DNA of 64,000 nt, from assembly GCF_001907675.1 (NCBI RefSeq), contig NZ_MPNT01000002.1, positions 307,319 to 371,318 on the forward strand. The letters run 5' to 3'. Position 1 is the stretch's first letter. Every line of letters starts with the position of its first letter. The notes under the pieces were generated by a model, which was not told the origin of the DNA, did not search any database, and worked only from the letters and a program-made list of their open reading frames with translations. This stretch comes from Mycobacterium paraffinicum. Its GTDB lineage: Bacteria > Actinomycetota > Actinomycetes > Mycobacteriales > Mycobacteriaceae. A program made the position numbers and the translations under genes. Below, piece after piece: positions 3,406 to 18,086 of this stretch.

Positions 3406-4091
3406 CGCTTGTCCGCCCGGATCACGATCAGTTCCTCTTCCCGGAGGCCGCGCGGTATCAGGCCGACGCTTTCCAACCACGTCGCGCGCGCCGCCATCAC
3501 CGGACCGAACGGTATCCACTTGCGGGCAACGACTCTCGCGTCCATCCCCGCCCACTTCAGGGAATCCAGGGATTGCTGAACGCCGGCCAGCGCCGAGTGC
3601 ACGAGCAGCAGGGAGCCGCCGTCACACAACAACTTCGGCGCCGCCTCGCACAGCGGATCCAACACCATCCGGCCATCCGGGCCGGCGTTCCAGGCCCACG
3701 ACGGGCCCGCGCTGGGGCCGATGTACTCCGTGTCGCCGCGCGGCGGGGTGGGCACATACGGCGGGTTCGACACCACGACGTCGAACGGCGCGCAGTCAAG
3801 CGCATCGCTCCAGGTGCCCTTGCGCACATCGACATTCACGCCGACAGCGGCCGCGTTGCTGCGAGTGCAGCCCACCGCATGCGGGCAGATGTCGAAGGCC
3901 GTCACGTCGGCGCCGCCCATCTCGGCGGCGGCGATCGCCACGAATCCGCTGCCAGTACATACGTCGAGGACTCGCCGCCCCGGAATGAGAGCGCTTTCCT
4001 GCATCACATTTACCAGAAATCGGGAATCGTCCTGGGGCTGATACACGTTCGAAGCAGCCGAGACAGCGGGTCCTGGATATGTTGTGGTCAA
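3402..4091 (-). CDS. HemK2/MTQ2-family class I SAM methyltransferase
   Basis: 229 residues. The SAM-binding glycine motif VLDVCTGSG (residues 41-49), an acidic residue after strand 2 (AFDICP) and the catalytic NPPY tetrapeptide (109-112) are all present. NPPY marks enzymes that methylate a planar amide or amine nitrogen, such as release-factor glutamine (HemK/PrmC) or adenine. The protein is shorter than PrmC and lacks its N-terminal helical domain, matching the archaeal/eukaryotic HemK2-like group. It ends with a 4-nt GTGA overlap into the CDGSH gene, so the two are probably co-translated. The target is unknown. The 98 bases upstream (4092-4189) hold no gene. Confidence 0.85.
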   Translation of the reverse strand: MTTTYPGPAVSAASNVYQPQDDSRFLVNVMQESALIPGRRVLDVCTGSGFVAIAAAEMGGADVTAFDICPHAVGCTRSNAAAVGVNVDVRKGTWSDALDCAPFDVVVSNPPYVPTPPRGDTEYIGPSAGPSWAWNAGPDGRMVLDPLCEAAPKLLCDGGSLLLVHSALAGVQQSLDSLKWAGMDARVVARKWIPFGPVMAARATWLESVGLIPRGLREEELIVIRADKR

Positions 4092-4189
4092 CTTTGGCCT
4101 TTCGACAGATCGCCGCGGCGATCACTCTTGGCCTGTGTAATGCCCGCAAACCGTTGCCTTCAAACGGCGTGGGGAAAGGGCGATCTCCG

Positions 4190-4744
4190 CTAACCGGTGG
4201 GCGCGTGCGCGAATTGCTTGACGATGGTCGCGCAGAACGCCGGCAGGTCCGACGGTGAGCGACTCGAGATCAAATTACCGTCGACGACGACCTCCTCATC
4301 GACCACGTTCGCACCCGCGTTGCGGAGGTCGGTGCGAATGGACGGATACGACGTGAGCGTCCTGCCCTCCGCCACCCCGGCTTCCACCAGCGTCCACGGA
4401 CCGTGACAGATTGCGGCGACCGGCTTTCCGGAAGCGACGAAGTCACGCACGAACGAGACCGCTGAGCTATCCACGCGTAGCTTGTCCGGGTTCACCGTGC
4501 CGCCCGGAAGCACCAGGCCATCGAATTCAGACGGCGAAACGTCCGACACCGCGCGGTCGACGCTGAAAGTTCCGGCCGGCTCGAGGTCGTGGTTACGGGC
4601 CTGGATTTCGCCGCTCTTCAACGAAAGAAGCTCAACTTGGGCACCGGCCTCTTTCAGGGCGGCGCGGGGCTGTTCGAGTTCGACCTTCTCCACGCCGTCG
4701 GCCGCCAGAATCGCGACCTTCTTGCCCTGCAATTCATTTGCCAT
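4190..4744 (-). CDS. DJ-1/PfpI family protein (type 1 glutamine amidotransferase-like)
   Basis: 184 residues. It has the DJ-1/PfpI fold with a nucleophile elbow AICHGPW (C113-H114) and an upstream acidic residue in the VEKVELEQP segment (about residue 19-26), as in PfpI/YhbO-type stress proteins, which are reported to act as glyoxalase/deglycase or protease-like enzymes. The start is supported by a strong AGAGGGGAA ribosome-binding site about 8 nt upstream of ATG 4744. It lies 34 nt downstream of the alcohol dehydrogenase gene on the same strand, so it may be the third gene of the SRPBCC-adh-pfpI operon. A detoxification role for reactive carbonyls fits both neighbours but is inference. Confidence 0.88.
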   Translation of the reverse strand: MANELQGKKVAILAADGVEKVELEQPRAALKEAGAQVELLSLKSGEIQARNHDLEPAGTFSVDRAVSDVSPSEFDGLVLPGGTVNPDKLRVDSSAVSFVRDFVASGKPVAAICHGPWTLVEAGVAEGRTLTSYPSIRTDLRNAGANVVDEEVVVDGNLISSRSPSDLPAFCATIVKQFAHAPTG

Positions 4745-4778
4745 AGCTATTCCCCTCTGGTTATTTCACTAACTTTCA

Positions 4779-5951
4779 TTACGTCGGGTTGAGGATCACC
4801 TTGGTGCAGCGATCCTCCTTGTTCTTGAAGATTTCGTAGCCGTGGGGCGCCTGGTCGAGGGTCAAATGGTGGCTGACAACAATGGTCGGGTCGATGTCAC
4901 CGTTGCGTATCCGCTCCAATAGCGGGCGCATGTAGCGGTGCACGTGACACTGGCCGGTCTTGATGGTCAACGACCGGTTCATGACCGCCCCGATGGGGAA
5001 TTTGTCCATCAGGCCGCCGTACACCCCGATGATCGAAAGGGTGCCGCCGTTGCGGCAGCTCATCGCCGCCTCCCGGATGGCATGCGGGCGTTCGGTTTCC
5101 AGGCGGGTGGCCTGCTTGACCCGGTCGTAGGCATCCACGGGGGCGGATCCACTGCGCGCCTCCATGCCGACGGCGTCGATGCAATGGTCGGGTCCCCGAC
5201 CGGCGGTGAGGTCGCGCAATTCCTCGAGCACCGACGTCTCGGCGAAGTTGACCGGCACGGCGCCGATTTTCTGGGCAAGCTCCAGGCGATATGGAACCCG
5301 GTCGACCACAATAACTTTCGAGGCCCCCAGCAGGTAGGCGCTCATGATCGCGAACAGGCCGACCGGTCCGGCGCCCCACACCGCCACGACGTCACCGGGG
5401 GTGATGTCACACATGTCCGCGCCCATGTAGCCCGTCGGCAGGATGTCCGACAGGAACAGCACCTGCTCGTCGGTCAGGTCGTCTTCGATCTTCAGCGGCC
5501 CGACGTCGGCGAATGGCACCCGCGCGTATTCGGCTTGGCCGCCGGCGAAACCGCCGAGCATGTGCGAATAGCCGAACAGCCCCGCTGGCGAGTGGCCCAT
5601 GAATTTCTCGGCGATGCCGGCGTTGGGGTTGGAGTTCTCGCACAGCGAGTACAGGTCACGCCGGCAGGCCGAGCACGCCCCGCACGCGATCGGGAACGGA
5701 ACCACCACCCGGTCGCCGACGGCCAGGTTGGTGACCCCCTTGCCGACTTCGACCACTTCGCCCATGAATTCGTGTCCGAGCACATCGCCGTGTTTCACGG
5801 TGGGGATGTAACCGTCGTAGAGGTGCAAGTCCGACCCGCAGATCGCCGTCGAGGTGATGCGCACGATGGCGTCGCGATCGTTGAGGATCTTCGGGTCCGG
5901 GACCGACTCCACTTGGACACTGTTGCGGCCCGCCCAGACGGTGGCCTTCAT
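4779..5951 (-). CDS. Zinc-dependent alcohol/formaldehyde-type dehydrogenase
   Basis: 390 residues from ATG 5951, which overlaps the upstream SRPBCC stop codon (ATGA). This is an MDR-superfamily enzyme. The catalytic zinc ligands C38 and H60-E61 and four structural-zinc cysteines (C90, C93, C96, C104) are present. A Rossmann motif GAGPVGLF lies about residue 185. The length, the [20 protein letters not shown] region and the C-terminal [15 protein letters not shown] segment place it near the glutathione-independent formaldehyde dehydrogenase-like ADHs. NAD(P)-dependent oxidation of an alcohol or hydrated aldehyde is expected; the substrate is not determined. The large upstream extension seen in the same frame (to 6707) is antisense noise inside the SRPBCC gene. 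Confidence 0.9.
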
Positions 5952-6877
5952 GCGCTGGCTCCTTTGTTCGGTTGCGCGGGCTGCTGATGCATCTGCCGGG
6001 CCGCCGCCGTGCCCTCGGGAGACCCGTCGGAACGCAACACCTGCCCGGTTTCGAGGATTTGCTTGAAGCGGCGCAGGTCGTCGTTGACTTGCTGCTCGGG
6101 GGATTCCCCGAACAGGCTCGCCGCCGCCTTGCCGAACAGGCCGCCCGGGATGTGGTAGCCGATCCTGACGCGAATTTCGGTGCCGTCGCCGGTGGCGGTG
6201 GGCGTGAACTCGACGCTGCCACCGTTCTCGATCACCGAGCCCGGCAGCGACTGCCACGCGATTCGCCTGTTCGTGTCGTCCTCGGTGATCTGCGCGTCCC
6301 ACTCCACCGAGCGGCCGGCCGGGGCGTTGGCGACCCAATGCGACTGCCCGTCGGTCGTCGGCGTCACCGACTTCAGGTGGTGCATGAAGCGGGGCAGGTT
6401 CTCGAGGTCCCGCCAGAAGCGGTACACCTCCTCGGGCGTGCGCCGCACGGTGACCGCGGCCCGCAGGGTGCGATGCCGGGAACCAGTCACGTGCCGGCCG
6501 CCGCCGTTGACCGTGCGCAGCGCCGTGTAGAGGTCGAGCCCGCCGATGCCGGCGAGCGCGACGGCCGAGATGGTGCCCTGCCGCCGCCGTCCCGGGCCGC
6601 GGGCGGCCACTCCGGCCACCAGCAGCGCCATGTCCAGGACGTCGCCGGCCACCCGGGTCCAGACCAGCTTGTCGGAACCGCCCAGCAGCGCCGCGCCATG
6701 GCCGCATTCCCGCGCGCCCAGCGCGCGGATGACCCGGCGCGACCGAGCCGTGTCGTCGACACCGGCGAGCGCAGCAACCTTTCCGGGGGCCACCAACTCG
6801 CTCAAGCCCAGCCCGAAACTGGCGCCGCTGAGAGCCTTGACCAACGCGGAGGTGGTGTTCGCGTTTCGATCGCCCAT
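5948..6877 (-). CDS. SRPBCC (START-like) family protein with N-terminal membrane region
   Basis: 309 residues. The first ~130 residues are hydrophobic with two or three likely membrane segments (around [13 protein letters not shown] and [14 protein letters not shown]). From about residue 145 a polyketide-cyclase/START-like (SRPBCC) domain follows: the [20 protein letters not shown] segment is typical of the COG5637/'cyclase-dehydrase' group. These domains bind hydrophobic ligands; no catalytic role can be assigned. The gene overlaps the dehydrogenase gene by 4 nt, so the two are translationally coupled. The 179 bases upstream (6878-7056) contain no gene and presumably hold the operon promoter, but no confident -10/-35 was seen. 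Confidence 0.85.
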
Positions 6878-7056: not shown

Positions 7057-8043
7057 TCACTTTGCCGCGTCACGCAGCGCTTCAAGCAAAGGTTCGGCGG
7101 CTTTGGAGAGGAAGAGGTCCTGCGATTCGCCGCCCACCTGGACGAGTGCGACGTCGGTGAATCCGGCCTCCCAGTAGGGCCGGACGGCCTCGACGATCGC
7201 GTCGAGGTCCGGCCCGCAGGGGATGGACTCGGCGACGTCTTCGGGGCGGACGAACTGGGTCGCGCCGGCGAAGCCCGCCGGCGTCGGCAGATCGGCGTTG
7301 ACCTTCCAGCCGCCGGCGAACCAACGGAACTGGTCGTGGGCGCGTTGGATGGCGGCGTCGCGGTCGGGGTCCCAGCACACCGGGATCTGTCCGACCACAC
7401 GGCCGCCGCCGGCCAGATTGGCGGCCTGCCGCGCCGCGTGCCAGGCGTCGACGAGTTCCCCGTCGGGCTCGACCGCCACGAAGTGGTCGGCCAGCCGGGC
7501 GAATCTCTCGATGGCCTTGGCGCCGCCCATCGCCACCGCGATGCCGACCGGGACATCGGGCACGTCCCACAGGCGTGCGGAATCGACGTGGAAGTACTCG
7601 CCGGTGAAGTTCACCAGTTGGCCGCCGAACAGCTCGCGGATGACCTTGATGGCCTCGCGCAGCATGTCCTGCCGGCGCTCGACGGTCGGCCAGCCCTTGC
7701 CCACGATGTGCTCGTTGAGGTTCTCGCCGCTGCCCAGGCCCAGGGTGAACCGTCCGTCGGACAGGATCTGCACGGTGGCGGCCTGCTGGGCGACGATCGC
7801 CGGGTGATAGCGCATCGCCGGGCAGGTCACGTAGGTGTAGAGGTCCACCCGTTCGGTGGCGTGCGCCACCGCCCCCAGCACGGTCCAGGCGTTGGGCGCA
7901 TGTCCCTGCGAGGTCAGCCAGGGGGAGAAGTGGTCGCTGCACACCTCGAAGTCGAAACCGCACTCTTCGGCCGAAACGGCTTGCCGTACAAGGTCTTTGG
8001 GTCCACTCTGCTCGGTCATCAAAGTGTAGCCAAAATTTGTCAT
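7057..8043 (-). CDS. LLM-class F420-dependent oxidoreductase
   Basis: 328 residues from ATG 8043. Luciferase-like monooxygenase fold with features of the TIGR03557-type F420 group, close to F420-dependent glucose-6-phosphate dehydrogenase: SDHFSPW near residue 40, the LGSGENLNEHIVG loop near residue 105, and a C-terminal ...DVALVQVG segment. It would use coenzyme F420, abundant in mycobacteria, for hydride transfer to or from an unknown substrate. The longer frame up to 8604 is antisense to nrfD and was rejected. It lies 89 nt downstream of nrfD on the same strand, so it could be a distal member of the formate dehydrogenase operon or be transcribed separately. Confidence 0.9.
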   Translation of the reverse strand: MTNFGYTLMTEQSGPKDLVRQAVSAEECGFDFEVCSDHFSPWLTSQGHAPNAWTVLGAVAHATERVDLYTYVTCPAMRYHPAIVAQQAATVQILSDGRFTLGLGSGENLNEHIVGKGWPTVERRQDMLREAIKVIRELFGGQLVNFTGEYFHVDSARLWDVPDVPVGIAVAMGGAKAIERFARLADHFVAVEPDGELVDAWHAARQAANLAGGGRVVGQIPVCWDPDRDAAIQRAHDQFRWFAGGWKVNADLPTPAGFAGATQFVRPEDVAESIPCGPDLDAIVEAVRPYWEAGFTDVALVQVGGESQDLFLSKAAEPLLEALRDAAK

Positions 8044-8132: not shown

Positions 8133-9218
8133 TCAGCCCGCGGTGGTGATCGAGTCCCCCGTGACGCCGGCCGCGCGACGCGCCTCGAGCCGGCGCTTCT
8201 GCGGTTCGATCGTGTAGCGGGGGTCGCGCGTGGACTCCAGCCCCGCCTCGAAGAAACCGAACCGCAGCATCGCCGACGCCGATAGCAACGCCAGGCCGGA
8301 CAGGGCGGCGACACCGCGATGGCCCCCGCCCAGCAACGCGCCCAAACCGCCGACGGCGGCCAGCCGTTCGCTCCAGGCCAACAGCCGGCCGGGCCTGCCG
8401 TGGTGCAGCGGCTCCCTGGTCACCGGGTCCATCCGGTACTCGGTGAACCTGGCGGAGATCAGGTCGCCGACCGCGCCGATGACGGCCAGCGTGCGGGCGG
8501 GGCGGGCTTCGGCGACCGGGGTGGTGATCATCGCCAGTCCCGACGCGGCCAGGCTCGCCGAGCTGACGAACACGAACGGCAGGTCCCGGTAGGCGGCGTT
8601 CCACGTCGGGGTCGCGGTGTCGGTGAGCAGCACCGCGGTGTAGACCGCGAGGGGCGGAGAGAACACGGCGGCTTCCAATCCGGCCGGTCCCTCGACGGCG
8701 CGCAGAACGGGCCGCAACGGGCCCAACGGGATTCGCTCACCGGTCATCCGGTCGACCTCGGAGGCGGCCGCGACGCCCATGCCCAGGCTGAACAAGCTGA
8801 GGATCCACGATCCGATGCTCATCGGCGAGGTCAGTTTGACCGTCCGCAACATGTTCACGAAGCGCTCCGGCCGGCCTAGGTCTTTCACCAGCGCGACCGC
8901 GCCCAACATCACCGCTATCAGAGCGGACAGTCTCGTGTTGCGGCGCAACGTGTCCCGGCCGGTGAGCTGGGCGCCGGCCGCGAGCAGGCCCGACCCTCCC
9001 GCGACGCCGCCCAAGAACAGGTAGGCGGCGACCTCGTGTCCCCACGGCGCGGGCTTGACCACCGGACGCCCGTAGTACGAGCTGAATTCGACTTCGGGGA
9101 CCATCGGCATCTCGCGCGACCCGTCGCCCCCACCCCGGCGGCCCGCCCGCCTGCCTTTGCGACGCTTGCCACCGGCGGGCTCCGGGGGGCGGAGGCTGTC
9201 GTATTCCGAAGTGCTCAT
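8133..9218 (-). CDS. nrfD: NrfD-family membrane subunit of formate dehydrogenase
   Basis: 361 residues from ATG 9218. After a basic Arg/Gly/Lys-rich N-terminus (about 1-35) comes the NrfD/PsrC polytopic region with roughly eight membrane helices (for example AAYLFLGGVAGGSGLLAAGAQ and LIAVMLGAVALVKDLGRP). NrfD subunits anchor molybdopterin oxidoreductases and exchange electrons with menaquinone without haem, in place of the cytochrome b subunit (FdnI) of the E. coli enzyme. It begins 7 nt after the fdhB stop codon, so fdhA-fdhB-nrfD form one three-subunit enzyme. The basic N-terminus should face the cytoplasm. Confidence 0.9.
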   Translation of the reverse strand: MSTSEYDSLRPPEPAGGKRRKGRRAGRRGGGDGSREMPMVPEVEFSSYYGRPVVKPAPWGHEVAAYLFLGGVAGGSGLLAAGAQLTGRDTLRRNTRLSALIAVMLGAVALVKDLGRPERFVNMLRTVKLTSPMSIGSWILSLFSLGMGVAAASEVDRMTGERIPLGPLRPVLRAVEGPAGLEAAVFSPPLAVYTAVLLTDTATPTWNAAYRDLPFVFVSSASLAASGLAMITTPVAEARPARTLAVIGAVGDLISARFTEYRMDPVTREPLHHGRPGRLLAWSERLAAVGGLGALLGGGHRGVAALSGLALLSASAMLRFGFFEAGLESTRDPRYTIEPQKRRLEARRAAGVTGDSITTAG

Positions 9219-9225
9219 GGGCCTT

Positions 9226-10197
9226 TCACCGATCCTTCCAGAAGGCCAGCGCCGCGGCGGCGAACATGCCCGCCGCGGCAATGCCCGCCCTCTTGAACAT
9301 CTGCGGCAGGTCGGCCGTGCACACCCGCGGGTCGGGCGGCAGCCCGTAGACCTCCGGCTCGTCAAGCAACAGGAAGATCGAGCCGGTGCCACCCACGCCG
9401 TCGCGCTCGTTGGCGCCGTAGAGGCGCGCCTCCGTCTGGCCCTGGGCGTGCAGCCGCGCGACCCGTTCCCGGGCCGTGGCCACCAGGTCGTCGTGGTCAC
9501 CGAACTTGATCGACGTCGTCGGGCAGGTCTTGGCGCAGGCCGGAATCTGGTCTTCGACGAGCCGGTCGTAACAGAGGGTGCACTTCTGGGCCACCCCGGT
9601 CACGGGTTTCTCGGCCGGACGATCGGGGCGCTGCGCCGGCGTGGTGTAGGTGCCGTCGCTGCGACGCTCCACCACGCCGAACGGGCAACCCGCGACGCAG
9701 GTGCCGCACCCGTTGCAGACGTCGTCCTGCACGACGACGGTGCCGAATTCGGTGCGGAACAGCGCGCCCGTCGGGCAGACGTCAAGGCAGCCGGCGTGCG
9801 TGCAGTGCTTGCACACGTCCGACGACATCAGCCAGCGGAATTCCGGAGTGTCCGGCGGCGTGAGGTCCGGCGCCGGCGCGGCACCGGGGAGCGCCGGCAT
9901 GCCCAAATCGGTTAGGGCGCGGCCGGATTCGCGTGCCTCCTCGATCCGGTCGCGGCCCTGCTCGACGAAGGCGACGTGGCGCCAGGTGCTGGCGCCCAGC
10001 GCTCCGGTGTTGTCGTAGGACGAACCCAGCAGCTCCAGGTCGCCGTCGCGCGGGTTGCGGTTCCACTCCTTGCAGGCGACCTCGCAGGCCTTGCAGCCGA
10101 TGCAGATCGAGGTGTCGGTGAAGAATCCCTTGCGCGGCTTGGGTTCGACCCAACCGGCGTCCCGCGTCGGGTCGGTCGGTCCGCTTAGCTTACCCAT
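9226..10197 (-). CDS. fdhB: Formate dehydrogenase beta subunit, four [4Fe-4S] ferredoxin-like protein
   Basis: 323 residues from ATG 10197, inside the last 8 nt of fdhA; the longer frame to 10257 is not needed. Four cysteine clusters typical of FdnH/FdoH/HybA-type electron-transfer subunits are visible: CIGCKACEVACKEWN, CKHCTHAGCLDVCPTG, CNGCGTCVAGCPFG, and CTLCYDRL with CAKTCPT. One hydrophobic helix near the C-terminus (RAGIAAAGMFAAAALAFW) resembles the single anchor of FdnH. It passes electrons from the molybdenum/Sec site to the NrfD quinone site. No signal peptide is present; in this enzyme class the beta subunit travels with alpha. Confidence 0.93.
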   Translation of the reverse strand: MGKLSGPTDPTRDAGWVEPKPRKGFFTDTSICIGCKACEVACKEWNRNPRDGDLELLGSSYDNTGALGASTWRHVAFVEQGRDRIEEARESGRALTDLGMPALPGAAPAPDLTPPDTPEFRWLMSSDVCKHCTHAGCLDVCPTGALFRTEFGTVVVQDDVCNGCGTCVAGCPFGVVERRSDGTYTTPAQRPDRPAEKPVTGVAQKCTLCYDRLVEDQIPACAKTCPTTSIKFGDHDDLVATARERVARLHAQGQTEARLYGANERDGVGGTGSIFLLLDEPEVYGLPPDPRVCTADLPQMFKRAGIAAAGMFAAAALAFWKDR

Positions 10198-13100
10198 CGG
10201 CTTGCCCCTCCCAGACGCCGTCGCTGATCCGCACGTTGCCCGTCTCGGTGGTGGCACCCGCGCGGGACTGATATTCGGCGATCAGGCGCAACAGGTCTTC
10301 GCCCTGCGGCCGCCGCCCGGGGCGGATGTCGCACGAGCCGGCCTTCGATTCCTGGATCTGCACGTTGGGGTCGAGCGTGATGCCGAGCAGGTCGTTGGCG
10401 GCGTCCCCGCTGACCACGGCGTCGCCGCCGACGCCCCAGTGGTACGGCAGCCCGATCTGGTGCACGGTGTGGCCGTTGATCACCAGCGGTGCAACGCGTT
10501 TGGTGACCAACACCCTGGCCTCGATGGCCGCGCGCGGCGAGATGATCGTCGCCCACCCGTAGGGCTCAAGACCGCGCTCGGCCGCCAGCTCCGGCGAAAC
10601 CTCGCAGAACATCTCCGGCTGCAGCTCCGACAGGTAGGGCAGCCACCGGCTCATCCCGCCGGCGGTGTGATGCTCGGTGAGCCGGTAGGTGGTGAACACG
10701 TACGGATACACGTCGGCCCCGGGCTCGCCGGCGCTGGGTGCGCTGAGATTGTCCTTGCGTGGGAAGGTGATTCGCCCCGGATTGCGCTGCTGCGGGTACA
10801 ACGCGTTCGCGACGGGCGACTCCTGCGGTTCGTAATGCGTGGGCAGTGGCCCGTCGACCACACCCTTCGGCGCGAACAACCAGCCCTTGCCGTCGGCCTG
10901 CATGATGAACGGGTCGTCGCCGGCCAACGCGTCCGGGCCGCCGATGTCCGGGTCCGGCCGGACGTGCGGGGCGCGGTCGACGGGAAAGTCGGGCACGTCG
11001 TCGCCCACCCAGCGGGCGCGCTGCTCGTCCCACCAGATGTAGCGCTTGCGCTCGCTCCACGGCTTACCGTCCGGGTCGGCCGACGCCCGGTTGTACAGGA
11101 TCCGCCGGTCGGCGGGCCACGCCCAACCCCACTCCGACTGGCTCGGGCTCGGACCGCCCAGTGGCGCTCGGCGTGCGGCCTGGTTGACACCCTCGGCGTA
11201 CACGCCCGAGTAGATCCAGCACCCGCACGATGTCGATCCGTCGGCACCCAGCTCGGTGTATCCCGGCACTGGCTGGCCGGCTTTGGGGCCGGTGAGGTAG
11301 CAGCCGCTGATCTCGGCCAGCACCGCGGTGGCGTCGGGTTCGCCGTGCTCGTCGGTGGGATAGTCCCAGGTCAGATCGAGCAGTGGCCGGTCGCGCTCGT
11401 CGGTGGACCCGGCCAGCCGCTGGCGGATTCGATTGCCCAGCTCGACGAAGAACTGCAGTTCGCTCTGGCAGTCGCCGGGTGGATCGACCGCCTTGTGCCG
11501 CCACTGGACGAGGCGTTGGGTCTGGGTGAAGGAGCCGGCCTTCTCGACGTGCGTCGCGGCCGGGAAGAAGAACACCTCGGTCTCGATCTCTTCGGTCTTC
11601 AGCTCGCCGGAGGCGATCTCCGGTCCGTCCTTCCAGAAGGTGGCCGACTCGATGAGGTTGAGATCGCGTACCACCAACCATTTCAGGTGCGACATGCCCA
11701 TGCGCTGCATCCGGCCGTGGGCCGACCCGACGGCAGGGTTCTGGCCGAGCAGGAAGTATCCGTCGACATCGCCCTCGAGCATCGACATGACCGTCTGATA
11801 GGTGCCGTGCGGCCCGGACAGTCGCGGCAGATAGTCGTAAGCCCAGTCGTTGTCCGCACGGGCGGCGTCACCCCACCATGCCTTGAGCAGGCTGACCATG
11901 TAAGTGTCGGCGTCGGCCCAGAAGCCTTTCTGGTTCTTCGGCCCGACGGCCTTCATGTAGTCGCGGAAGGTGTCGTGGACGCCGGCCTTGGGCATCGACA
12001 GGTAGCCGGGCAGCAGGTTGAACAGCGTGGGGATGTCGGTGGACCCTTGGATCGTGGCGTGCCCGCGCAGCGCCATGATGCCGCCGCCCGGGCGGCCGAC
12101 GTTGCCCAGCAGTAGCTGCAGAATCGTTGCGGTGCGGATGAATTGGGCACCCAGGGTGTGCTGCGTCCAGCCGACGGCATAGGCGAAACAGGTGGTGCGC
12201 TCGCGGCCGGAGTTCTCCGTGACAGCTCTCGCCAGGTAATCGAAGTCCTCGAGGCTGATACCGCAGACGTCGCGCACCATCTCGGGCGTGTAGCGGGCGT
12301 AGTGCCGCTTGACAATCTGGAACACCGTTCGGGGATGCTGCAGGGTCTCGTCGCGAACCACGCGAGCGTGCGGCAAGGGTGGACCACCGCTGCCGTGCGC
12401 ATCGCCGGCGGCTCGGGCGGAGGCGCTGGCGCCGCGCTCCTGGCGGCGCTCGTCCTCTTCCTGTCCGGCGTACGCCCAGGTCGATGAGTCGTACTGTCCG
12501 GTCTCGGGGTCGTAACCGGAGAACAGGCCACCCAAATCCTCTGTGTCGCGGTAATTCTCGTTTATCAAGGTGGCCGCGTTGGTGTAAGCCAGGACGTACT
12601 CGGAGAACCACAGCTCGCGAGAGATGACGTAATTGATCAGGGCGCCGAGCAGCACCACGTCCGAGCCGGCCCTGATCGGGATCTGCTTGTCCGAGACCGC
12701 CGAAGTGCGGGTGAAGCGCGGATCGACGTGAATCACCTTGGCGCCCCGCGCTTTCGCTTCCTCGACCCATTGGAAGCCGACGGGATGACACTCGGCCATG
12801 TTGGAGCCCTGGATGACGATGCAGTCGGCGTTGGCCATGTCTTGCAGTGTTTGGGTGGCGCCACCGCGCCCGAAGGAGGCCCCCAGACCGGGAACCGTGG
12901 AGCTGTGTCAAATACGGGCTTGATTCTCGATCTGGATGGCGCCGGCGGCGGTGAAGAGCTTCTTGATGACGTAATTCTCTTCGTTGTCCAGTGTGGCGCC
13001 CCCGAGTGCGGCGATCTTCATGGTGCGCCGCAACGGATGGCCCTTCTGGTCGATGTCCTGCCAGGCGTGGCGGCGGGCTTCGACGAAGCGGTCGGCCACC

Positions 13101-13477
13101 ATGTCGATGGCGGTGTCCAGCTCGAGGGGCTGCCATTCGGTCGCCCGCGGCGGGCGGTAGAGCACCCGCAGCTGCCGGCCCGGCGAGTTGACCAGCTGTT
13201 CGCTGGCAGCGCCCTTGGGGCACAAGCGGCCTCGCGAGATCGGCGAGTCCGGGTCACCCTCGATCTGGACCACGCGCTCGTCCTTGACATACACCTTCTG
13301 CCCGCAGCCGACGGCGCAGTAGGGACAGATGCTCTGGACCACGCGGTCGGCCGTCGTCGTGCGCGGCGTGACGGCGCGGGTCCGTTTCGAGGTGACGGCC
13401 GACCCACGGCCGAGCTTGTCCGGTGAACGCAGCTGACGCACGACGGGCCACTCAAGGAAGAGCTTGCGCATAGCCAT
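10190..13477 (-). CDS. fdhA: Selenocysteine-containing formate dehydrogenase alpha subunit
   Basis: One gene of 1,095 residues read through an in-frame UGA at 12910-12908; conventional calling gives two pieces (12908-13531 and 10190-12838). The reading is NQARI-Sec-HSSTVPGLG, exactly where formate dehydrogenases H, N and O carry catalytic Sec (or Cys), here residue 190. An N-terminal [4Fe-4S] site C51-x2-C54-x3-C58 ... C86 precedes it; molybdopterin-binding regions and a C-terminal molydopterin-dinucleotide domain follow. It oxidises formate to CO2 (or the reverse) with an Mo/W-bis-MGD cofactor. The start is ATG 13477, or ATG 13471, which has an AGAGG site 8 nt upstream. No twin-arginine signal is seen in the first 45 residues, so the active site may face the cytoplasm. 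selD lies 50 nt upstream. Confidence 0.95.
12870..12910 (-). promoter_or_regulatory. SECIS element and UGA-Sec codon in fdhA
   Basis: The UGA codon (12910-12908) is followed, after the same spacing as in E. coli fdhF, by a hairpin. GG-UU-CCC, loop GGUCU (12889-12885), then GGG and GGCC cover 12896-12878. The GGUCU apical loop and the unpaired U in the 5' arm are the features SelB binds in the E. coli element, and here the loop starts 18 nt after the UGA. The codons remain coding (HSSTVPGLG), as bacterial SECIS elements lie inside the reading frame. Seen directly: the sequence and pairings. Known: the comparison element. Inferred: SelB binding. Confidence 0.85.
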
Positions 13478-13527
13478 GGCCTCTACCTTAGTGTGCGCGC
13501 CCGAAACTCCGCCCGCGTCGGAACCCC

Positions 13528-14520
13528 TCAATGGACGACGATCGTGTGCTCGCCCCGCGGCACCAGCTCACCGATCACGGTCGCGCCCGGGATCTCGCCG
13601 GCGATCAGCAGCCCGCCCGAGGTCTGGGCGTCGGCGAGCAGCAGGGCGTCCTCCTCGCCGACGCCGGACAGGTCGACGTGCGGGGCCACCCAGTCGAGGT
13701 TGCGCCGCGTGCCCCCGCTGACGTAGCCGGCCACCAGCGCCTCCCGCGCGCCGTCCAGGTAGGGCACCGCCGCGGCGTCGACGATCGCCGTCACGCCGCT
13801 GGCGCGGGCGAGCTTGTGCAGGTGCCCGAGCAGCCCGAATCCCGTTATGTCCGTGGCGCATTCGACCCCGGCCGCCAGCGCCGCGGCGGACGCGTCGGCG
13901 TTCAAGGTGGTCATCGCGTCGATCGCCTGCTCGAAGCGCTCCCCGGTGGCCTTGTGCCTGCTGTTCAGGACGCCCACCCCGAGCGGCTTGGTCAGCGACA
14001 GCGGCGTCCCGGGTTTGCCGGAGTCGTTGCGCAGCAACCGGTTCGGGTCCGCGATCCCGGTGACGGCCAGGCCGTATTTTGGCTCCGGGTCGTCGACGCT
14101 GTGCCCGCCGGCGAGGTGGCAGCCGGCCAGCCCGCAGACGTCCAGGCCGCCGCGCAGCGTCTCGGCCGCCAGCTCGAACGGCAGTACGTCGCGCGGCCAG
14201 CCCAGCAGGTTGACCGCCACCACGGGACGCCCGCCCATCGCGTAGACGTCGGAGAGCGCGTTGGTGGCGGCGATGCGTCCCCAGTCGTAGGCGTCGTCCA
14301 CCACGGGCGTGAAGAAGTCGGTCGTCGCGATCAGCGCCGTGCCGCCCTCGAGGCGCACCACGCACGCGTCGTCGCCGTGGTCCAGGCCGACCAGCAACTC
14401 GCCGACCGGGTCGCGCGGCGCGCTCGCCCCCACTCCGCGGACGATGTCCTCCAGCTCACCGGGCGGGATCTTGCACGCGCACCCGCCGCCGTGGGCGTAC
14501 TGCGTCAGTCGATAGGCCAC
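13528..14520 (-). CDS. selD: Selenide, water dikinase
   Basis: 330 residues from GTG 14520; upstream in-frame residues (to 14643) run through the tRNA-Sec gene on the other strand and were rejected. The N-terminal active-site loop reads HGGGCACKIPP: Cys14 and Lys17 match the catalytic Cys17 and Lys20 of E. coli SelD, so this is a cysteine, not a Sec, version. The AIRS/PurM-type ATP-binding domains follow (for example ALIATTDFFTPVVDD, about residue 70). It makes selenophosphate from selenide and ATP for SelA. It is the first gene of the minus-strand selD-fdhA-fdhB-nrfD unit and diverges from tRNA-Sec with only 27 bases between. Confidence 0.95.
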   Translation of the reverse strand: MAYRLTQYAHGGGCACKIPPGELEDIVRGVGASAPRDPVGELLVGLDHGDDACVVRLEGGTALIATTDFFTPVVDDAYDWGRIAATNALSDVYAMGGRPVVAVNLLGWPRDVLPFELAAETLRGGLDVCGLAGCHLAGGHSVDDPEPKYGLAVTGIADPNRLLRNDSGKPGTPLSLTKPLGVGVLNSRHKATGERFEQAIDAMTTLNADASAAALAAGVECATDITGFGLLGHLHKLARASGVTAIVDAAAVPYLDGAREALVAGYVSGGTRRNLDWVAPHVDLSGVGEEDALLLADAQTSGGLLIAGEIPGATVIGELVPRGEHTIVVH

Positions 14521-14547
14521 GCGTCCATACTTGTCCCTATGGTCCGA

Positions 14548-14642
14548 GGAGGCGTGTCCGGTCTGGTGACCGGCGCGGTCTTCAAAACCGTCGAACGGCA
14601 GACGCTGCCGCTGGCGGGTTCGATTCCCGTCCGCCTCCGCCA
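14548..14642 (+). tRNA. selC: tRNA-Sec (anticodon TCA), CCA encoded
   Basis: 95 nt including an encoded CCA. The acceptor strands GGAGGCG (14548-14554) and CGCCTCC (14632-14638) pair perfectly, with discriminator G. The anticodon loop CTTCAAA carries TCA at 14582-14584 on a GCGGT/ACCGT stem. A long variable arm GGCAG-ACG-CTGCC and a T arm GCGGG-TTCGATT-CCCGT follow. The size, extended variable arm and UGA-reading anticodon are diagnostic of bacterial tRNA-Sec, which SerRS charges with serine and SelA converts to Sec. selA starts 18 nt downstream, so the tRNA is probably cut from a selC-selA-selB transcript. Confidence 0.95.
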
Positions 14643-14660
14643 TACTTCGTCGAGCCCGGC

Positions 14661-15941
14661 ATGAGCGACCCGCGCCGGCGGGTGCCGGGCACCGACACCC
14701 TGCTCGCCGACCCTCGCCTGGTCGAAGCCCAGCGGGTGCTGGGCCGAGCGCTGGTCAAATCGGTGGTCGCCGAGGCGCAGCAGCGGGCCCGCGCCGGGGA
14801 GATCGACCCCGAGAGCGTCGCCGAGCACGCCGTCGCCGCCCTTCCGGCCACCGCGTCGAGCCTGCGTCCCGTCATCAACGCCACCGGCGTGGTGGTGCAC
14901 ACCAACCTGGGCCGGGCGCCGCTGTCGCGGGCCGCCGTAGACGCGGTGGTCGCCGCGGCCGGGACCACGGACGTCGAGCTGGACCTCGCGACGGGCCGCC
15001 GCGGCCGCCGGGGCCGGGCCGCCCTGGCCGCGCTGTCGCGGGCGGTGCCCACCGCCGGCGCCGTGCACGTCGTCAACAACAACGCCGCCGCCCTGCTGCT
15101 GACGGCCCTGACGCTGGCCCCGGGGAAGGAGATCGTGCTCAGCCGCGGCGAGCTGGTCGAGATCGGCGACGGGTTCCGCATCCCCGAGCTGCTGGCCTCC
15201 GCCGGATCGCGGCTGCGCGAGGTCGGCACCACCAACCGCACCAGCCTTCGCGACTACGCCGAGGCGATCGGGCCGCAGACCGGCTTCGTCCTGAAGGTGC
15301 ACCCGTCCAACTTCCACGTCACCGGGTTCACGTCGGCGGTCGGCGTCGCGGAGTTGGCGAAGCTGGGTGTGCCCGTGGTGGTCGACATCGGTTCCGGGCT
15401 GCTGTCTCCGCACCCGGTGCTGCCCGACGAGCCCGACGCCACGTCGACGCTGCGCGACGGCGCGGACCTGGTCACCGCGAGCGGCGACAAACTGCTCGGC
15501 GGCCCGCAGGCCGGCCTGCTGCTGGGCGACGCCGAACTCATCGAGCGGCTGCGCCGCCACCCGGCGGCACGCGCGCTGCGCGTCGACAAACTCACCCTCG
15601 CCGCGCTGGAAGCCACCCTGACGGGCCCGCCGCCGCCGGTGGCCGAGGCGTTGGTCGCCGACCTGAACGGGTTGCGAGCGCGCGCCGCCGCGCTGGCCGC
15701 CGCGCTGCCGGGCGCCGAGGCGGTGGATTGTGTCGCGGCCGTCGGCGGGGGCGGCGCCCCGGACGTGCGGCTGCCGAGCGCCGCCGTGAGCCTGCCCGAG
15801 TCCTACGCCGCCGCCCTGCGCGCCGCCAGCCCGCCCGTCGTCGGGCGGCTGGAGGCGGGCCGCTGCCTGCTCGACCTGCGCACGGTGGCGCCGGAGGACG
15901 ACGAGCGGCTGGCGGCGGCGGTGCGGGCATGTTCGTCCTAG
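14661..15941 (+). CDS. selA: L-seryl-tRNA(Sec) selenium transferase
   Basis: 426 residues. PLP-dependent fold-type I enzyme with the SelA signatures RPVINATGVVVHTNLGRAPL (about residue 73), VVDIGSGLL, and the PLP lysine in TASGDKLLGGPQAG (Lys277). It replaces the hydroxyl of Ser-tRNA(Sec) with selenium from selenophosphate. The length is slightly below the E. coli enzyme (463), with a short N-terminal domain. It starts 18 nt after tRNA-Sec and overlaps selB by 13 nt, so the three form one unit. This gene and selB look even more GC-rich than the flanking genes, with long GCC/GGC runs; a composition scan would quantify that. Confidence 0.95.
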   Translation: MSDPRRRVPGTDTLLADPRLVEAQRVLGRALVKSVVAEAQQRARAGEIDPESVAEHAVAALPATASSLRPVINATGVVVHTNLGRAPLSRAAVDAVVAAAGTTDVELDLATGRRGRRGRAALAALSRAVPTAGAVHVVNNNAAALLLTALTLAPGKEIVLSRGELVEIGDGFRIPELLASAGSRLREVGTTNRTSLRDYAEAIGPQTGFVLKVHPSNFHVTGFTSAVGVAELAKLGVPVVVDIGSGLLSPHPVLPDEPDATSTLRDGADLVTASGDKLLGGPQAGLLLGDAELIERLRRHPAARALRVDKLTLAALEATLTGPPPPVAEALVADLNGLRARAAALAAALPGAEAVDCVAAVGGGGAPDVRLPSAAVSLPESYAAALRAASPPVVGRLEAGRCLLDLRTVAPEDDERLAAAVRACSS

Positions 15942-17638
15942 CCACCGCCGGGCACGTCGACCACGGCAAGTCGACCCTGCTGCACCGGCTCACCGGCATG
16001 TGGCCCGACCGGCTGGCGGAGGAGCGCCGCCGCGGCCTGACGATCGACCTCGGCTTCGCGTGGACGGAGATCGGCGGCCGGCAGCTGGCTTTCGTCGACG
16101 TGCCCGGCCACGAACGGTTCGTGGCGAACATGCTCGCCGGCGTCGGCGCGGTCCCGGCGGTCCTGTTCGTCGTCGCCGCCACCGAGGGCTGGATGCCGCA
16201 GTCCGACGAGCACCTCGCGGCGCTGGACGCCCTCGGGGTCCGCCACGCGCTGCTGGTGATCAGCAAGGCCGACCTCGCCGACCCGGGACCGGCGATCGAG
16301 CAGGCCCGCGAACGGTTCGCGGCCACGTCGCTCGCCGACGCCCCCGTCGCGATCGGCACCGACCTCGACCGGGTGCGCGCCGAGCTGCTGGCGCTGACCG
16401 ACCGGCTGCCGGTCCCGGACCCCGCCGCCGACGTGCGGCTGTGGGTGGACCGCAGCTTCACCGTCCGGGGCGCGGGCACCGTCGTAACCGGCACCCTGGC
16501 CGCGGGCACGGTACGGGTGGGCGACGAGCTGGAGCACGCCGGCCGGCGCGTGACGGTCCGCGGGGTGCAATCGCTGGGCCGCGACCAGGCGGCGGTCGGC
16601 CCGGTGGCGCGCGTCGCGCTGAACCTGCGGGGGGTCGACCGCCAGCACATCGGCCGCGGCGACACCGTCCGGACGCCGGGTGTGTGGCTGGATACGGCGG
16701 AGGTCGACGTCGCGCTGCGGTCGCCGGGGGCGCTGCACCGGCAGCTGGTCCTGCACCTCGGGTCGGCGGCCGTGCCGGTGCAGGTCCGTCCGCTCGGGGC
16801 GGCCGCGGCCCGGCTGCGGCTACCGAGGCCCCTGCCGCTGCGCGTCGGGGACGTCGGGCTGCTGCGCGACCCCGGCGAGCACCGGATCGCCGCCGGCATC
16901 GAAGTGCTCGACGTCCGGCCGCCGGCGCTGCGCCGCCGGGGCGCCGCGCGCGAGCGGGCCGCGGAGCTGGCGACCGGCGCAACTCGGCCGCCCGCCTGCG
17001 CGCGGGCGGCCGAGTTGCGGGCGATGGGCCTGCCGCTCGCCGGCCAGCGGGTGGGCGACTGGGTGGTGGATCCCGAATGGTGGGCCGGGCGGCGCGAGCG
17101 CGCGACCGCGGCGGTGCGGCTCTGGGCGGACGACCACGACGTCGCGGCGGGGATGCCGCTGGAGACGCTGCGGCAGCGGGCCGGGCTGCCCGCCGCCGAA
17201 TTGTTGCCGAAGCTGCTCGAGGGCACCGGGCTTCAGGTGGCCGACGGGATGGTTCGTTCGCCGGGCGCCGGCCTGCCGGCCCGCGTCGACAAGGCCGTGC
17301 GCACCGTCGAGGAGTGGCTGGCCGCCGAGCCCTTTCGGGCGCCGGAGGCCGACGAACTGGCCGAGCTCAAGCTCGGTCCCCGGGAGCTGGCGGCGGCGGT
17401 GCGCGCCGGGCGGCTGGCCCGGATCGCCGACGGCGTCGTGCTCGGGGCCGGCGCCTTGGAGCGGGCGGCCGTCGTCCTCGCGGGGCTACCGCAGCCGTTC
17501 ACCGTCAGCGACGCGCGCCGCGCGCTCGGCACCACCCGCCGGGTCGCGATCCCGCTGCTGGAGCAGCTCGACGCCCGGCGGGTGACCAGGCGAGCCCCGG
17601 ACGGCACCCGGGTCGTGCTGGCTACAGCCGCTCCTTGA
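15929..17638 (+). CDS. selB: Selenocysteine-specific translation elongation factor
   Basis: 569 residues from ATG 15929, giving the expected N-terminus MFVLATAGHVDHGKST; the longer frame from 15728 is inside selA. G1 (GHVDHGKST, 8-16), DVPGHE and SKAD motifs define an EF-Tu-like GTPase that binds Sec-tRNA(Sec). beta-Barrel domains follow, then winged-helix modules from about residue 350 to the end (for example MPLETLRQRAGLP and QPFTVSDARRAL), which bind the SECIS hairpin. E. coli SelB is 614 residues, so this one is modestly shorter. It overlaps selA by 13 nt, and its 3' end overlaps yqeY on the other strand by 17 nt. Confidence 0.95.
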   Translation: MFVLATAGHVDHGKSTLLHRLTGMWPDRLAEERRRGLTIDLGFAWTEIGGRQLAFVDVPGHERFVANMLAGVGAVPAVLFVVAATEGWMPQSDEHLAALDALGVRHALLVISKADLADPGPAIEQARERFAATSLADAPVAIGTDLDRVRAELLALTDRLPVPDPAADVRLWVDRSFTVRGAGTVVTGTLAAGTVRVGDELEHAGRRVTVRGVQSLGRDQAAVGPVARVALNLRGVDRQHIGRGDTVRTPGVWLDTAEVDVALRSPGALHRQLVLHLGSAAVPVQVRPLGAAAARLRLPRPLPLRVGDVGLLRDPGEHRIAAGIEVLDVRPPALRRRGAARERAAELATGATRPPACARAAELRAMGLPLAGQRVGDWVVDPEWWAGRRERATAAVRLWADDHDVAAGMPLETLRQRAGLPAAELLPKLLEGTGLQVADGMVRSPGAGLPARVDKAVRTVEEWLAAEPFRAPEADELAELKLGPRELAAAVRAGRLARIADGVVLGAGALERAAVVLAGLPQPFTVSDARRALGTTRRVAIPLLEQLDARRVTRRAPDGTRVVLATAAP

Positions 17639-18086
17639 CCGCCGCCGACAATCGGGCTCCGTCGGCCTTGCCGGCCGCGATCGCGGTGGCCGCCTTCATC
17701 ACCAAGCCCATCTGCTTCATGCTCGGGCGCTCGCCGATCTCCTCGGCGACCTGGGCGATCGCGGTGTCGGCGACGTCGGCCAGTTCCGCTTCGGTGAGCG
17801 GCGTGGGCAGATATTCGTCGATGATCCGGGCTTCGGCGTGCTCGTTGGCGGCGAGCTCCCCGCGGCCGTTCTGCGTGTAGATCTCCGCCGATTCGGCACG
17901 TTTGCGGGACTCCCGCGCCAGCACCTTGATCACTTCGTCGTCGGAGAGGTCCCTGGCCTGTTTGCCGGAGACTTCCTCGGTTTGGATCGCGGCGAGCAGT
18001 AAGCGCAGCGTCGCCGTGCGCAGCTTGTCCTTGCTCTTCATCGCGTCGGTCAGGTCGGCCCGCAGCCTGGATTTGAGTTCGGCCAT
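17622..18086 (-). CDS. GatB/YqeY domain-containing protein
   Basis: 154 residues from ATG 18086, opening MAELKSRLRADLTDAMKSKD; the longer frame to 18197 lacks support. The whole protein is a YqeY domain, related to the C-terminal tail domain of the amidotransferase subunit GatB, with conserved ADTAIAQV and ERPSMKQMGLVMKA segments. Stand-alone YqeY proteins may bind tRNA, but their role is not established. It is the orthologue by position of M. tuberculosis Rv3688c and marks the left end of the conserved gene order. Its 3' end overlaps selB tail-to-tail by 17 nt, so the sel locus abuts conserved DNA with no spacer. Confidence 0.9.
   Translation of the reverse strand: MAELKSRLRADLTDAMKSKDKLRTATLRLLLAAIQTEEVSGKQARDLSDDEVIKVLARESRKRAESAEIYTQNGRGELAANEHAEARIIDEYLPTPLTEAELADVADTAIAQVAEEIGERPSMKQMGLVMKAATAIAAGKADGARLSAAVKERL

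Follow-up and report, generated by a model that had tools for sequence, protein, structure and literature searches.

A compact and probably working gene block for selenocysteine (Sec) use was found in Mycobacterium paraffinicum, in the stretch of DNA analysed here, referred to as the window, which is 64,000 nucleotides long (assembly GCF_001907675.1, contig NZ_MPNT01000002.1, positions 307,319 to 371,318 of the forward strand). The block lies at positions 8133-17638 and uses both strands: fdhC, fdhB, fdhA and selD are encoded by the minus strand, while selC, selA and selB are encoded by the plus strand. It is flanked by a luciferase-like gene (Luc) and yqeY. Every gene of the block is backed by Pfam and RNA searches. 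The Sec-decoding gene set is complete in the window, with selA, selB, selC and selD all found, and the formate dehydrogenase (FDH) has the three-subunit make-up of a Sec alpha subunit, a 4Fe-4S beta subunit and an NrfD-type membrane subunit. By sequence and structure, the window also holds a UGA-bearing gene with a bacterial Sec insertion sequence (SECIS) just downstream of the codon. The features of the site are listed below; the decoder types (I and II) and the FDH types (A and B) are those of the two mycobacterial islands described afterwards.

7057..7887, minus strand: Luc, luciferase-like monooxygenase (Pfam PF00296), left edge of the site; start codon unsettled
8133..9218, minus strand: fdhC, NrfD-type membrane subunit, type A (PF03916); start inferred
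9226..10197, minus strand: fdhB, 4Fe-4S subunit, type A (PF13247 and others)
10190..13477, minus strand: fdhA, Sec formate dehydrogenase alpha subunit, type A (Pfam), with a single TGA read through and kinship to island II
11136..13109, minus strand: recombined tract within fdhA with island-II-like alleles, both ends of the gene being like those of the decoder-siblings
12878..12896, minus strand: SECIS hairpin with a 7-bp stem and a GGUCU loop (pairing, covariation and covariance-model score)
12908..12910, minus strand: in-frame UGA read as Sec, U209 of P0001 (translation of the fdhA frame)
13528..14520, minus strand: selD, Cys form, decoder type I (PF00586/PF02769, AIRS; tree); GTG start at 14520 inferred
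14548..14642, plus strand: selC, tRNA-Sec (UCA), type I (Rfam RF01852, 78.9 bits)
14661..15941, plus strand: selA, type I (PF03841; tree)
15929..17638, plus strand: selB, type I (PF00009, GTP_EFTU, and SelB-wing_3); start inferred
17622..18086, minus strand: yqeY (PF09424), right edge of the site

The fdhA frame has 1114 codons with one TGA and probably starts at codon 20 or 22, which places the likely start at 13477, with 13471 possible too; its product has the molybdopterin, Fe4S4 and dinucleotide-binding domains of Pfam. SelD holds HGGGCACK, presumably the catalytic motif of this protein, with Cys at the catalytic position. The likely start of selD is 27 bp from selC, and the ends of selB and yqeY overlap by 17 nt (17622-17638). 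An original prediction made from the letters of the window had described this gene set, the Cys form of SelD, the divergent 27-bp spacing and the 17-nt overlap. The gene set was confirmed by Pfam, Rfam and a tRNA search, the Cys form was read from the HGGGCACK motif, and both distances are correct. The same prediction called the block self-contained, which holds for decoding and fails for FDH maturation. FdhD is a maturation factor of FDH, and its gene was found in one copy in each of nine Mycobacterium genomes, outside the block in the seven that bear FDH.

Comparison across the genus showed two divergent kinds of Sec island in Mycobacterium. In island I, selD lies on the minus strand and selC-selA-selB-fdhABC on the plus strand, and the FDH is of type B. 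In island II, fdhABC (plus) precedes selD (minus) and selC-selA-selB (plus), and the FDH is of type A. Types were assigned by identity to the window, and the identities are bimodal: 77-97% (type A) or 63-66% (type B) for FdhA and 78-96% (type I) or 59-64% (type II) for SelA, with nothing in between among the 150 places listed for each. In the 129 genomes, out of 396, that are present in both lists, the pairings of decoder and FDH are I+B (55), II+A (40), I+A (33) and II+B (1). The type-II proteins of 20 island-II loci are 48-51% (SelB), 66-71% (SelD) and 57-63% (SelA) identical to those of the window, and the window's selC is 72-76% identical to seven type-II mycobacterial tRNA-Sec. Similarly, full-length matches of fdhC are at 75-97% in mycobacterial hybrid or island-II loci and at 43-52% in type-B loci. 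The named survey of loci covers the best 80 of 222. The order of island I recurs in several Amycolatopsis and Streptomyces loci, and that of island II in ten family- or class-level loci (L185, L186, L191, L192, L195 and L197-L201), which may lie in or outside Mycobacterium.

The window combines the two islands. Its decoder is of type I and occupies the chromosomal site of island I, and the FDH beyond selD is that of island II (type A). In I+B loci (L163, L172, L173, L174 and L005, the last from M. scrofulaceum) the site reads Luc-selD-selC-selA-selB-fdhABC(B)-yqeY, of which L176, also I+B, shows the yqeY side only; in the hybrids, window included, it reads Luc-fdhCBA(A)-selD-selC-selA-selB-yqeY. 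The gene yqeY adjoins selB in hybrids, fdhC in six I+B loci and Luc at empty sites, and the FDH operon of the hybrids is co-directional with selD and inverted relative to island II. The identities of Luc and yqeY track that of the decoder. We built maximum-likelihood trees of 76 rows, hand-chosen from the fetched loci and leaving out several island-II-like ones (including L186, L193 and L199). In the SelD/A/B tree, all 25 hybrids fall together with the 19 I+B rows, apart from island II (support 100), and in the FdhA/B tree the hybrids group with island II (support 100). When the hybrids were forced to join I+B on the FDH data, 1537 log-likelihood units were lost (approximately unbiased (AU) test, p-AU 0.00023); forcing them to join II+A on the sel data cost 1434 units (p-AU 2e-14).

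Moreover, the kinship of fdhA changes along the gene. We compared the window with decoder-siblings (L002, L009, L006, L144, L147) and with island-II references (L118, L119, L120, L122, L125). In codons 0-150 and 900-1114 the window is sibling-like at 49 of 56 decided sites, and in codons 150-900 it is island-II-like at 87 of 102 (4 neither). These limits were chosen after an identity scan; a permutation test free of them found its best segment at 11136-13109, with none of 5000 permutations as high (p 0.0002). The tract of about 2 kb contains the Sec codon and the SECIS, and the conflict is visible in plain identity scans too. A single history shared by the sel and fdh genes, as expected for an island that moves whole, is thus not what the trees and the mosaic fdhA show. 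Separate histories were also the outcome that the original prediction had named beforehand as speaking against it.

Exchange appears elsewhere in the genus. M. scrofulaceum (L005) is nested within the hybrids on the decoder tree (a ten-row group, support 99), yet has a type-B FDH closest to that of L173; along its locus, decoder and flanks are hybrid-like and the FDH alone differs. The ratio of FDH to sel distance between L005 and L173 is 0.283, lower than in any of 153 control pairs, the smallest of which has 0.343. Genome G280 is a reverse hybrid: its decoder is of type II and its FDH of type B, and the two are unlinked, with 4.6 Mb between them on a contig of 5.6 Mb. The path between the hybrid L141 (G273) and the island-II locus L118 is 1.685 long on sel and 0.095 on FDH.

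How a decoder could serve an FDH of different descent is suggested by the SECIS. A covariance model built from the window and related sequences scores the hairpin at 57.1 bits, the second-best site in the window reaching 7.6 bits. The Sec-site codon was read in 169 loci and is TGA in 166 and TGC in three, which come from genomes without SelA. Among 21 distinct hairpin sequences, window included, hand-picked from loci whose Sec-site codon was read, 94.6% of base-pair cells are kept; sliding the partners drops pairing to 69% or less, and the covariation score was matched by one of 500 shuffles. The SECIS region of the window is 0.96-1.00 identical in nucleotides to that of 12 mycobacterial type-B genes, where the gene mean is about 0.69 (8-codon mean). 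In three Cys homologues, whose genomes lack SelA, the identity drops to 0.62, and codons for shared residues in the hairpin region are identical there at only two of six. The conserved protein accounts for part of the likeness, but the codons of the Cys genes diverge; both decoders thus seem to use one common signal, and the near-identical SECIS of the two mycobacterial FDH types could explain why their FDHs can be swapped.

The FDH also appears to be the only user of the decoder. FdhA was found in 178 of the 396 Mycobacterium genomes and SelA in 168; both are present in 168, FdhA alone in 10, SelA alone in none and neither in 218. The 10 FdhA-only genomes comprise three with a Cys form, a deletion (G102), an assembly gap (G123) and five others (G091, G150, G157, G298 and G312), which the closer reading left out; G123 was set aside as a case of SelA loss, its missing SelA coinciding with a contig end. 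An exact SECIS pattern matches fdhA in 50 of 50 SelA-positive genomes. Its other matches, five in these 50 and two in 20 SelA-negative genomes, lie below the reversed-pattern control (eight and three), and a second selenoprotein on this ground was rejected as background. With the covariance model, fdhA was the sole strong match (53.7-63.7 bits) in 27 of 27 SelA-positive genomes, the rest scoring at most 20.5 bits among the 150 scored of about 4,000-6,500 first-look candidates per genome; scores in 11 SelA-negative genomes go up to 22.5 bits. These scans reach only this SECIS model and would miss selenoproteins whose SECIS differs from it. From the scans and the SelA/FdhA counts, the FDH therefore looks like the reason why the decoder is kept, within reach of the model. 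This agrees with the earlier view of FdhA as the lone Sec protein of the window, where it has the sole strong SECIS; for whole genomes the test was made in relatives. In cited passages, FdhA and an MT0536-like protein are predicted as selenoproteins of M. avium paratuberculosis (PMC1242214), UGA as Sec is reported for four other mycobacterial strains (PMC4524478), and a SelD-like gene together with a predicted SECIS is the basis on which a selenoprotein is proposed for M. smegmatis (MSMEG_0567 and MSMEG_0571; PMC6039565).

Loss of the trait can also be read from the loci. In a sample of 50 genomes, 44 had yqeY, and 18 SelA-negative ones were read, together with G102 and G123. In 12 of the 18, yqeY lies 187-316 bp from Luc, and in six the two are not adjacent; such an empty site fits loss of the trait or never having had it alike. 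In G102 (L207:7975-8301), all that is left of selA and selB is a fused frame of 108 codons, which joins SelA residues 1-75 to the SelB end, and the UGA-bearing fdhABC, selD and selC are kept. Sec decoding was apparently lost there before its user gene, and loss therefore need not hit the whole trait at once. The original prediction had taken the gene organisation to favour joint transfer or loss of the entire trait. Its picture of one selenoprotein with its decoder, present or absent as a trait, stands with the SelA/FdhA counts and the empty sites; that of one island with one history does not.

Gene content, two island types, conflicting trees, a mosaic fdhA and the likeness of the SECIS together lead us to consider it probable (roughly 0.85) that the block is a working but chimeric Sec system, with the decoder from island I and the FDH from island II. 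Judging by homology, SelD would supply selenophosphate, SelA would turn Ser-tRNA-Sec into Sec-tRNA-Sec, and SelB would carry the latter to the UGA of positions 12908-12910, which the hairpin of positions 12878-12896 would mark. The product would be the alpha subunit of a three-subunit, membrane-anchored FDH, probably feeding electrons from formate to the respiratory chain. As to the direction of the swap, selD-selC-selA-selB would descend from island I and still stand at its Luc/yqeY site; the FDH operon of island II would have been placed beside selD, replacing the type-B FDH that relatives have between selB and yqeY, and later recombination within fdhA would have put an island-II allele over about 2 kb around the Sec codon. 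Such a swap may have been possible because the SECIS hairpin is almost alike in the two FDH genes. The enzyme thus seems to be a swappable cartridge rather than a part that travels with the kit as one island. It is about an even bet that this extends to actinobacteria at large, with decoder and selenoprotein as separate modules and the SECIS as a frozen adaptor: the FDH operon, or the Sec-codon core of fdhA, would be exchanged by recombination between systems whose SelB is about 50% and tRNA-Sec about 75% identical, and selection would keep the hairpin interchangeable.

Several points weigh against this reading. The trees are quick ones with support from the Shimodaira-Hasegawa-like approximate likelihood ratio test only, and values under 80 occur at 22 of the 73 inner branches for sel and at 17 of 73 for FDH. 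On the FDH tree the hybrids fall into more than one clade (4 changes), and on the sel tree they need 3 changes; L014 and L141 stand apart. That the decoder is the resident part we infer from its location and from flanking genes that track sel, and the FDH donors are suggested by their alleles. The FDH of M. scrofulaceum is likely a swap back, with modest support from the distance ratio. For the SECIS, changes on both sides occur at two hairpin pairs, and 132 of 500 shuffles reach the same; the identity to seven island-II type-A genes (0.83-0.96) is unexceptional for those genes; five outgroup genes range over 0.71-0.96, with L032 at 0.71; and SECIS conservation owes part to the coding constraint of a conserved protein stretch.

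It is conceivable that a single Sec island of sel and FDH genes was inherited, transferred and lost as a unit. SelA is never found without FdhA, the empty yqeY-Luc sites agree with this, the orders of islands I and II recur in Amycolatopsis and Streptomyces and in the family- and class-level draws, and transfers of the whole trait with fdhA have been published, as the cited passages put it (PMC1794560, PMC5029168). Both AU tests, however, reject it for the hybrids, and it would have to accommodate the mosaic fdhA, the type-B FDH of M. scrofulaceum inside the hybrid decoder clade, the reverse hybrid G280, and G102, which lost only most of selA and selB; we consider it very improbable. Since the trees alone give no direction, the decoder might instead have been replaced under a resident island-II FDH. 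The hybrids, however, occupy the site of island I between Luc and yqeY, whose identities follow the decoder, the 20 island-II loci, each read over 16-20 kb, contain no match to Luc or yqeY, and the FDH operon points the other way from that of island II, all of which makes this replacement quite improbable.

Alternatively, both FDH operons could have flanked an ancestral decoder, with differential loss and no transfer. FDH-A lies on the selD side in hybrids and FDH-B on the selB side in I+B loci, so that the two could have coexisted; G909 holds both types, and the FDH-B of M. scrofulaceum groups with that of L173, one of two I+B rows placed with the hybrids on the decoder tree. The distance ratio of that pair is, though modestly, too close for descent, and the FDHs of L141 and L118 are 0.095 apart against 1.685 for their decoders. 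Both Sec FDH types occurred together in none of 18 re-examined genomes and in none of a set of 12, the rest being unchecked singly, and the mosaic tract requires recombination regardless. We regard differential loss as unlikely, and favour the replacement of the FDH beside a resident island-I decoder.

Some further observations concern the same loci. Remnants of FDH-B were sought between selB and yqeY in L019, L025 and L154, which have an extra 2.2 kb there: none was found in L025 and L154, and the gap of L019 gave a single weak hit, 33% identical across 57 residues (E 0.006). L025 (12982-15162) and L154 (12063-14222) carry an unrelated, membrane-like open reading frame (ORF) of about 720 codons at this place, and L019 (about 12962-15200) has a like-sized gap without such a long ORF. 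In L009 (6324-8755), about 2.6 kb with a ParA-like ORF (KGGVGKTT) is inserted between fdhA and selD. In G200 (L153/L154), about 24 kb separate the type-A FDH from the type-I decoder; a later insertion has split this hybrid block. Two decoders in one genome were considered for 18 genomes with double matches and rejected on a new search, the extra SelA matches being pieces of type-I SelA. A second Sec FDH in G143 (C123) and G202 (C44) was likewise dismissed, as the second FdhA, present besides a Sec FDH, has no TGA. SelA matches 149 plasmid records; among the 30 listed none is mycobacterial and the actinobacterial ones are 60-69% identical, on which ground a mycobacterial plasmid home for the sel genes was set aside. 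G909 (C18, C4; L188, L189), from the class-level draw, has FDHs 75% and 64% identical to the window, with selB, selC and selD beside the type-B-like operon.

With regard to composition, G+C is highest in selA and selB (about 75-77%), fdhA has about 66-70% and the window as a whole 69.5%; positions 15001-17000, within selA and selB (14661-17638), reach 0.774 against 0.695 overall. The G+C comparison with neighbours proposed in the original prediction showed no uniform deviation across the block, and a single foreign island defined by composition was set aside as the shift is not uniform.

FdhA relatives without TGA also occur in the genus. L202, L203 and L204 (G015, G060 and G098) have Cys (QARVCHS) and no SelA, and are Cys-for-Sec FDHs in Sec-free relatives whose SECIS, by comparison of sequences, is eroded. 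Sec encoded by UAG occurs in actinobacteria. A class-wide FdhA search found an in-frame TAG in G705:C70, G1026:C7, G741:C260 and G1008:C195; the first three lack TGA (G705 and G1026 full length, G741 in pieces) and G1008 has both.

Published surveys, as far as the cited passages go, treat Sec use as a trait that lineages gain or lose and that may be transferred along with fdhA. In Mycobacterium, a natural mix-and-match is seen within one genus: each of the two decoders occurs with each of the two FDHs, the rarest pairing in a single genome. This opens the testable question whether distantly related SelB proteins share a generic way of recognising the SECIS. The genus also provides an example of decay of the trait (G102) and Cys-for-Sec FDHs with eroded SECIS in Sec-free relatives. 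The open-access passages surveyed, including a 2026 review (PMC13188914), make no mention of a decoder/FDH mismatch in mycobacteria, which proves little. In the passage on Yersinia pestis, selB is a pseudogene in some strains and the UGA of FDH remains (PMC1273633); as in G102, the decoder is broken and the UGA kept, by a frameshift in selB there and by a selA-selB deletion in G102.

A. chiangmaiensis DSM 45062 belongs, we presume, to the genus Actinomycetospora. Its formate oxidation is described as Se-dependent and its FDH1 cluster contains SelA and SelB (PMC7176365). Like the window, it has a membrane-bound Sec FDH linked to sel genes, and formate removal was shown to depend on selenium; it has three Sec FDHs and no swap in the passage available, whereas the window has one Sec FDH. 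In Corynebacterium aurimucosum, a region of fdnG-fdxH...selD-selA-selB is described (PMC2830990), in which, as in the window, a Sec FDH is clustered with selA, selB, selC and selD. Judged by its gene numbers, the region is ordered like island II, and no decoder/FDH mismatch is mentioned in the passage, whereas the decoder of the window is that of island I and its FDH operon is inverted. M. marinum has selA (MMAR_5190) linked to a Sec FDH (fdhA/fdhB, MMAR_5194/MMAR_5195), as in the window, and the trait was lost in its sister lineage M. ulcerans (PMC3434033); this is treated there as trait loss, with no discussion of origin in the passage. In the published whole-trait transfers, as in the window, FDH is the sole selenoprotein and stands next to the sel genes; there the two are held to have moved jointly, whereas here they have different histories.

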